A stretch of DNA of 64,000 bases from Kiritimatiellia bacterium (GTDB lineage Bacteria; Verrucomicrobiota; Kiritimatiellia; PWTM01): contig JAOACR010000017.1 of assembly GCA_026417735.1 (NCBI GenBank), positions 1 to 64,000 on the forward strand. Direction: 5' to 3'. Below are positions 18,437 to 22,988 of this stretch, piece by piece. A program made the translations under genes and the position numbers. The notes beneath the pieces were generated by a model. That model worked only from the letters and a program-made list of their open reading frames with translations, was not told the DNA's origin and did no database searches. The stretch's first letter is position 1. The number at the start of each line of letters is the position of its first letter.

Positions 18437-19063
18437 TTAGGCGTTTTCCATCCGGCGCCGGCGGAACCAAATCGCGGCGCCCGCCCCCACCAGCACCATC
18501 ACCGCCGCCGACGGCTCCGGAATCAGCGACTGCGACGCCATATACGATATCCCCCCGTAGTTCACAACGTCAGGCGGCGGCGGCGGACCACCGCTGGGAT
18601 CCGCATCTGACAATCCCCCGAACGGGGTCAGTGGCGCAACGCCAAAATGCGTTCCGAGCGGAATGCTGCCCGGCCCCATGTATGAACTGTAAGGGAAGTT
18701 GAAGAAGACAATATACACGTAACCCGGCACAAACGCGTCGGGGGGAAGACTATACGACGACTCCTGGAAGTAGTCACCACTCGCGTAACCGGTGATTCGA
18801 CCGCTTGAGGTGCCCAGAAGGTTCATGTTCCGAGCGCCCAGAAAGATATCGCCGCCCGTCGGATTCTCAAGGCTGGCGGGGTTGACCCCCATCGTCGTGT
18901 CCGGGCTCCAGAACGCGAAAAACAGGCTTTGATTGGGAATCAACGTCACCCCATTTTGCTGATAAAACGTATTCGCCGGGCTGTTCCAATTAATCCGGAT
19001 ACCAGCCTCGCTCGCTCCCGCGATGGCCAATGCCACCACACACGACAACCCTCGTATCGTCAT
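18437..19063 (-). CDS. PEP-CTERM exported surface protein
   Basis: 208 aa. An N-terminal signal peptide (LSCVVALAIAGASEAG) leads into a beta-rich, Gly/Ser/Pro-rich body of no recognised family. The C-terminus has the sorting signal IPEPSAAVMVLVGAGAAI followed by WFRRRRM: a PEP box, a hydrophobic helix and an Arg cluster. Such proteins are cleaved and anchored by exosortase and often sit at the surface of biofilm-forming or polysaccharide-secreting bacteria. No exosortase gene lies in the window. Confidence 0.85.
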   Translation of the reverse strand: MTIRGLSCVVALAIAGASEAGIRINWNSPANTFYQQNGVTLIPNQSLFFAFWSPDTTMGVNPASLENPTGGDIFLGARNMNLLGTSSGRITGYASGDYFQESSYSLPPDAFVPGYVYIVFFNFPYSSYMGPGSIPLGTHFGVAPLTPFGGLSDADPSGGPPPPPDVVNYGGISYMASQSLIPEPSAAVMVLVGAGAAIWFRRRRMENA

Positions 19064-20044: not shown

Positions 20045-20902
20045 ATGAACGCCGGATTTGCAATGAAAAAACTGATCAATGACCTGATCCAATTGCAGGA
20101 ACTTTTTGAGGCCCGCGCACAGCAGGAGATGCTGGCGGGGCGGGAACGACTCAGCGAGCTGGACGCCGCGATCGAACGGATGCTGGCCGGCATCCCCGCC
20201 GAATACGCTCACCGGTTCCGCCGCCTGCAGCAGCGCAGCCCGCCCGCGATCGTGCCCATGGTGAACAACGTGTGCGGCGGCTGTGGAATGGTGATTCCGA
20301 TCAGCGAGGTCCACGCGATTCACGCGGCGACCGCGCTGCACACCTGTCCGACATGTGCGCGGCTGCTGTACAACCTCGACAGCTCCGCACCGCGCCGCCT
20401 GCCGGACAAGCGCGCGGGTGCGGCGGGCGTGCGCGTGGGCATCGCGCGCTACACCTCGCCAGAGCTGATGATGCCCGAGCTGACCGCGAGCGATCGCGAC
20501 TCCGCGATCCGCGAAATCTGCCTGCAACTGGAGCGCCAAGGCTTCGTCACCAGCGGGGAAAGCCTCGCGGAAGCCGCGCTGCGGCGCGAAGCCATCGCCT
20601 GCACCGCGATGGAACACGGCATCGCATTCCCGCACGCCCGCGGCGTCGAGGGCGGCGGCCTGACCGTCGCGGTGGCGCTGAGCCGCCGCGGGTTGCGGTT
20701 CGAGCCCTCGCAGCGCACGCTGACGCGAATCATCTTCTTCGTCGTGATTCCGTCCGCTGCCAGCGCGTTCTATCTGCGTCTGCTCGCGGGCCTCACGCGC
20801 ACCTTCCAGGAGGCGGAAGCGCGCGAGAAGCTGCTCGACGCCGCCACGCCGGAGAAGATGTACCGCGCGCTCTGTCAGCTGACGCGCAAGACCGTCCTGT
20901 AG
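20045..20902 (+). CDS. zinc-ribbon / PTS EIIA (fructose-Ntr type) fusion
   Basis: 285 aa in two parts. Residues 10-65 form a probable coiled coil ([16 protein letters not shown] onward). A C4 zinc ribbon follows with Cys77-x2-Cys80 and Cys101-x2-Cys104, resembling the C4-type domain of DUF164/CT398-like proteins. Residues 135-285 are a PTS EIIA type 2 domain with His197 in GIAFPHARG, the usual phosphorylated histidine. No membrane EIIC/EIIB or HPr/EI gene is in the window, so a regulatory (EIIA-Ntr-like) role is likelier than sugar uptake. GGAG at 20030-20033 supports ATG 20045; ATG 20063 is an alternative. A sugar-isomerase-like gene follows. Confidence 0.8.
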
Positions 20903-22554: not shown

Positions 22555-22664
22555 GGTAGTCTGCTCAACGGTGGCGGTTGCGTCGGTTCGGGCCGCGGGC
22601 CCCGCAGCACGCGCCGAAGAGAGTGACGGTAAGGCGGCCGACAGTCGAGGAAAGCGACAGAGGA

Positions 22665-22988
22665 ATGAATATATTCGTGGGCAACCTCTCCTACCAGGCG
22701 GGGGATGAGGATCTTCGCGCGGCGTTCGCCCGGTTTGGCCAGGTCACGTCCGCGAACGTCATTGTGGACCGGACCACCGGGCGCTCCCGTGGGTTCGGCT
22801 TTGTGGAAATGCCGAACCGGGAAGAGGCGCTGCGGGCCATCCAGGCATTGAACGACAGCGATTTGCTGGGCCGGCCGATTAAGGTGAACGAGGCGCGTCC
22901 GCGCGAGGATCGGCCGCCTCGCCGCGAAGGGGGCGGTTACGGGCGCGAGTCGGGAGGCGGAGGCCGGAGGTACGAGAACCGCTTCTGA
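22665..22988 (+). CDS. RNA-binding protein with one RRM domain
   Basis: 107 aa. A single RNA recognition motif covers residues 1-80, with RNP2 IFVGNL and RNP1 RGFGFVEM intact. A short Arg/Gly-rich tail follows (GGGYGRESGGGGRRYENRF). Such small RRM proteins occur in several bacterial phyla, including cyanobacteria and PVC bacteria, and are often cold- or stress-linked. AGAGGA precedes the ATG at close range. A strong terminator follows, so it is probably monocistronic, with a 110-base leader after the preceding stop. Confidence 0.9.
   Translation: MNIFVGNLSYQAGDEDLRAAFARFGQVTSANVIVDRTTGRSRGFGFVEMPNREEALRAIQALNDSDLLGRPIKVNEARPREDRPPRREGGGYGRESGGGGRRYENRF

Follow-up and report, generated by a model that had tools for sequence, protein, structure and literature searches.

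The fusion gene found in the window, that is the whole stretch of 64,000 nucleotides analysed here, codes for a short CdsZ-like zinc ribbon module followed by a PTS EIIA domain. Both domains are known, and what is new is the joining of an EIIA output to this short module; fused, or paired as two adjacent genes in relatives, the short zinc ribbon and the EIIA probably represent an undescribed phospho-controlled regulator. No description of a zinc ribbon-EIIA fusion, nor of Kiritimatiellae with PtsN, was found in the literature searched, which covered few subscription papers. When 349 DUF164 proteins were surveyed in 2011 (PMC3372290), the DUF164 domain was located near the C-terminus in every one, and of the three proteins excepted from the usual architecture only a NIF3 fusion was named; this supports the remark, made in a sequence-only reading of the same DNA, that the domain order is unusual.

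The gene consists of one stop-free frame coding for 285 aa, whose features are collected in Table 1. Translation may start instead at the ATG at 20063, corresponding to Met7 and giving a protein of 279 aa, because several orthologues begin at the equivalent of this residue in the alignment. Residue numbers such as His197 refer to the 285-aa frame used in the sequence-only reading, and the structure model is numbered on the 279-aa form.

Table 1. Position of the fusion gene and of its parts in the window, with the evidence for each.
Feature	Position	Strand	Evidence
Mini-CdsZ zinc ribbon-EIIA fusion gene	20045..20902	+	Open frame; full-length orthologues in 35/38 relatives
Short helical hairpin corresponding to the CdsZ/HP0958 coiled-coil base	20063..20269	+	AlphaFold model; superposition on 3na7 and 4ilo
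C4 zinc ribbon PF02591, Cys77/Cys80/Cys101/Cys104	20270..20368	+	Pfam; invariant Cys
Basic low-confidence linker	20369..20458	+	pLDDT minimum near model residues 110-120
PTS EIIA domain, fructose/mannitol/Ntr type, PF00359	20459..20872	+	Pfam; EIIANtr fold match
His197 codon, predicted phospho-acceptor	20633..20635	+	Invariant FPHxR; aligns with the active-site His of PtsN-type EIIAs
Tyr243 codon, where PtsN has its second conserved His	20771..20773	+	Tyr invariant in the fused family; His in PtsN sequences

Pfam assigned residues 76-108 to Zn_ribbon_9 (37.2 bits, cut-off 29.1) and residues 139-276 to PTS_EIIA_2 (76.8 bits, cut-off 27), in agreement with the two domains, a C4 zinc ribbon and an EIIA of fructose/Ntr type, and with the order that had been proposed from the sequence. 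PF02591 was matched by 30/30 orthologues at E values up to 0.01. Thus, with this score and its two CxxC pairs the protein contains a genuine DUF164 zinc ribbon, and with the PF00359 score and an invariant FPHxR it contains a PTS EIIA of type 2; the invariance of this motif in 30 orthologues also upholds, as a prediction, the earlier choice of His197 as the phosphorylatable residue.

The AlphaFold model of the 279-aa form, built with 30 orthologues, had a pLDDT of 86.9 and a pTM of 0.78. Its C-terminal half resembles EIIANtr (1a6j, Z 21.0), while the N-terminal half starts with helices at residues 2-23, 30-43 and 46-58. Sequence profiles matched CT398 (E 3e-12), HP0958 (1.5e-8) and EIIANtr (1.5e-8), the first two being the best matches of the N-terminal half among solved structures. 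In the superposition on HP0958, residues 1-106 of the model span residues 1 to 234 of that chain with Z 15.1 and 1.5 Å over only 106 aligned positions, and the N-terminal half superposes on CT398 with Z 14.8 and 1.7 Å over 105 positions, in a match spanning chain residues 1 to about 234. Since so few positions are aligned over so long a span, the modelled N-terminal module looks like a CdsZ from which most of the coiled coil has been removed; the coil absent from the superposed model amounts to about 130 residues. The long coiled coil that had been expected upstream of the ribbon is therefore replaced, in the model, by a short helical hairpin.

The zinc ribbon and the base of the hairpin are common, in sequence and fold, to the fusion protein and to the DUF164 proteins CdsZ/CT398 of Chlamydia and FlgZ/HP0958 of Helicobacter. 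Unlike CdsZ and FlgZ, however, which have a long N-terminal coil and a C-terminal zinc ribbon, the fusion has a short hairpin and a central ribbon to which the EIIA is appended; consistently, it scored 18.2 bits with the NCBIfam CdsZ model, against a cut-off of 275.

The fusion, whose spread the sequence-only reading had suggested examining, was matched at full length in 35 of 38 related genomes; no match was obtained in G012 (69% complete), G025 and G037. A wider draw comprised 289 genomes of the phylum, 97 of them belonging to the class Kiritimatiellia: the fusion was counted in 89 of these 97, those without it being six genomes of family f18, G281 and G249. Outside the class it is carried by nine genomes, which belong to two families, f56 and f63, and several family f23 genomes have two copies. 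Four Cys, R-E, FPHxR, GGGL, IP and FYLxLL are invariant across 30 orthologues, and the two outside families, at 31-36% identity, retain the four Cys, R-E, FPHxR and FY; the doubt, raised earlier, that the Cys pairs might not be conserved is thus removed. On one contig (G018:C1), partial copies of the fusion gene lie near both ends at a spacing of about 11,511 bp, which looks like an assembly repeat.

The two halves also occur as neighbouring genes, an arrangement first seen at two loci outside the class; in all, split pairs were found in five more of the phylum's families. When a profile built on the N-terminal half was run over 80 further genomes, the proteins it matched fell into two kinds: full-length CdsZ, with frames of about 236-300 aa, and a short form. 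An EIIA gene is located directly downstream on the same strand in 12 of the 13 short zinc-ribbon loci examined (the exception being L167), and none was present within 1.5 kb at any of 17 full-length CdsZ loci. The gap between zinc ribbon and EIIA in the split pairs is mostly 1-80 bp or an overlap, with one of about 300 bp. A two-gene unit outside the class points to a functional link of the halves rather than to chance.

In the EIIA tree, the fused EIIAs form a single clade (support 99/95) having the split EIIA of G040 as its sister (91/73), and a 98/94 branch parts PtsN from the fused and split EIIAs together; one long-branched host EIIA groups with the split ones, but its placement is unsure. 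In the zinc-ribbon tree, which is based on 74 columns only and leaves many forks unresolved, a 96/95 branch keeps the full-length CdsZ ribbons to one side. A recent origin from the host's own CdsZ or PtsN was rejected, since PtsN is elsewhere in the EIIA tree and full-length CdsZ, which the host also encodes, forms its own group. Most likely, on these moderately supported trees, a short zinc ribbon and an EIIA long ago formed a two-gene unit that was fused once, which is the simplest reading; the fusion gene would thus have arisen by the joining of a two-gene operon.

EI (a 602-aa frame) and HPr are each encoded once in the host, in a row of genes comprising an LptB-like ABC gene, hpf, hprK, ptsH and ptsI; the search for a PtsP-length EI, which the sequence-only reading had proposed, gave none there. 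Six EIIA type 2 domains are distributed across five host genes, coding for the fusion, PtsN, a CPA2-like antiporter (two domains), an HTH-EIIA protein and a 273-aa protein. The ptsN gene is directly downstream of the gene for enolase (L126:8053-10273, G000:C9), the enzyme that makes PEP, the phosphoryl donor of the PTS. The antiporter is a 1034-aa frame in which a CPA2-like cation/proton antiporter is combined with two EIIA domains (G000:C13:41651-42592; L032, L036), and in the HTH-EIIA protein a helix-turn-helix, of excisionase type by eye, precedes an EIIA with a long branch in the tree (G000:C23:159364-159780; L035). As in the zinc ribbon fusion, an effector is joined in these proteins to an EIIA, presumably as regulatory input; the effectors, however, are different and the genes are others.

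A search confined to the PF02378 permease family found no PTS_EIIC in the host nor in 37 of 38 genomes searched. Because the host combines an operon for EI, HPr and HPr kinase with no detected PF02378 permease, the EIIA of the fusion most likely acts as a regulatory output. An EI of about 550-640 aa is present in nearly all the fusion-bearing genomes examined, and for five f18 genomes with a PtsP-length EI only, the fusion is absent or the family is one in which it was unseen. In f18, where the fusion was unseen, four genomes carry an EI of about 595 aa; the presence of this EI does not require the fusion, so the association is one-directional, and strict co-occurrence of the fusion with a non-PtsP EI was rejected.

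The EIIA fold, the context of the phospho-His, a relay with no detected EIIC permease and, at some loci, a divergent ptsN neighbour liken the fusion to PtsN/EIIANtr. Its EIIA nevertheless differs from PtsN in forming a separate clade, in having Tyr in place of the second active-site His and in being attached to a zinc ribbon; in line with these differences, it scored 39.2 bits with the PtsN/EIIANtr equivalog TIGR01419 (cut-off 138.7).

That the relay runs from EI through HPr to EIIA has been established for the protein families concerned. In the mechanism that we propose with moderate confidence, the fusion protein would be a soluble output regulator of the PTS phosphorelay: EI would phosphorylate HPr, HPr would hand the phosphoryl group to His197, and the phosphorylation state of His197 would gate the binding of a partner, protein or nucleic acid, deciding whether or how the short zinc-ribbon module engages it. 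The conserved architecture, the adjacency of the split pairs, the separation of these EIIAs from PtsN and the presence of the relay genes argue for this gating model. The earlier idea of a regulator coupling binding to phosphotransfer gains from the class-wide architecture and the two-gene relatives; its metal-sensing part is unsupported, a structural zinc ribbon needing no such role. Since the second PtsN active-site His is Tyr in all the fused members aligned, the chemistry of phosphotransfer may differ.

The partners of related CdsZ/FlgZ proteins are sigma-54/RNA polymerase, regulators of secretion ATPases or an mRNA, and those of EIIANtr are often K+ transport proteins; candidate partners of the fusion are sigma-54/RNA polymerase and K+ transport proteins, each with counter-evidence. 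It is possible, and we put it forward only tentatively, that short CdsZ-like zinc ribbons with a dedicated EIIA, two-gene or fused, make up a distinct regulator family of the phylum, through which the PTS would act directly on RNA polymerase/sigma-54 or on RNA.

A more specific form of the gating model would have the zinc-ribbon module bind RpoN or its holoenzyme, EIIA phosphorylation tuning the stability or activity of sigma-54. The nearest solved relatives, CT398 and HP0958, both bind RpoN, FlgZ Cys mutants lose it, sigma-54 is present in 102 of 107 class genomes, and rpoN precedes the fusion by 2.7-9.5 kb on the same strand in one group of about 9 loci. We nonetheless consider this form doubtful: according to what PMC5947703 relates of Barta 2015, mapping placed the RpoN binding of CT398 in the coiled coil alone, of which the fusion lacks the greater part, and the host has a full-length CdsZ as well. 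Moreover, family f18 keeps sigma-54 without the fusion and G040 (94% completeness) has the split pair with no sigma-54 match, so that strict co-occurrence with sigma-54 was not found. Regulation of K+ or other ion transport, in which the EIIA would bind TrkA/KtrA-type proteins as PtsN does in Proteobacteria and the zinc ribbon would be an anchor, draws on published work tying PtsN to K+ transport and on convergent TrkA and TrkH genes directly downstream of the fusion in 5 of 81 loci; it is improbable, because four of these five loci are much alike, such neighbours are absent from the window and from other clades, and the zinc ribbon is left unexplained.

In another reading, the EIIA would no longer be a phospho-acceptor and would serve only as a scaffold beside a structural zinc ribbon. 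The Tyr found in every aligned fused member at the position of the second active-site His speaks for this reading, to which we give a small chance; on the other hand, the phospho-His, the preceding Arg-Glu pair and the surrounding residues are invariant, and at the second position one split relative has Tyr too, whereas another keeps His. Participation of the EIIA in a sugar-transporting PTS is very unlikely: the domain is PF00359 and, among NCBIfam models, scores best with that for fructose IIA, TIGR00848, but the 58.8 bits are under the cut-off of 103.5 and the PF02378 permease is missing as described above. As to a chance frame fusion or an assembly error, homologues with separate genes, which the sequence-only reading had regarded as a sign of chance, do exist outside the class; they form, however, a tight two-gene unit, and the same fused frame is highly conserved in dozens of independent assemblies, which rules this explanation out for practical purposes.

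The targets on which the EIIA ends of regulatory PTS chains act are largely unknown outside Proteobacteria, and the pair, fused or in two genes, offers a concrete candidate effector; the existence of both forms makes the question of EIIA targets directly testable. The same pair may also shed light on the binding partners of the widespread CdsZ/FlgZ zinc ribbon.

A survey of 81 fusion loci showed that recurrent neighbours are clade-specific, none being conserved class-wide. Besides the rpoN and Trk genes mentioned above, ptsN lies divergently 160-240 bp upstream of the fusion in 11 loci, a protein-kinase-like gene is convergent with it in about 14, aroK is mostly downstream in the loci with rpoN, and a gene resembling that of ribosomal protein S1 is upstream in four f56 loci. 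None of the informative neighbours is present in the window, which contains, at 18437-19063 on the minus strand, a gene for a secreted protein whose C-terminal tail resembles a sorting signal, of PEP-CTERM type by eye, and, at 22578-22988 on the plus strand, one for a short protein that appears by eye to be of RNA-recognition-motif type with a glycine/arginine-rich tail.
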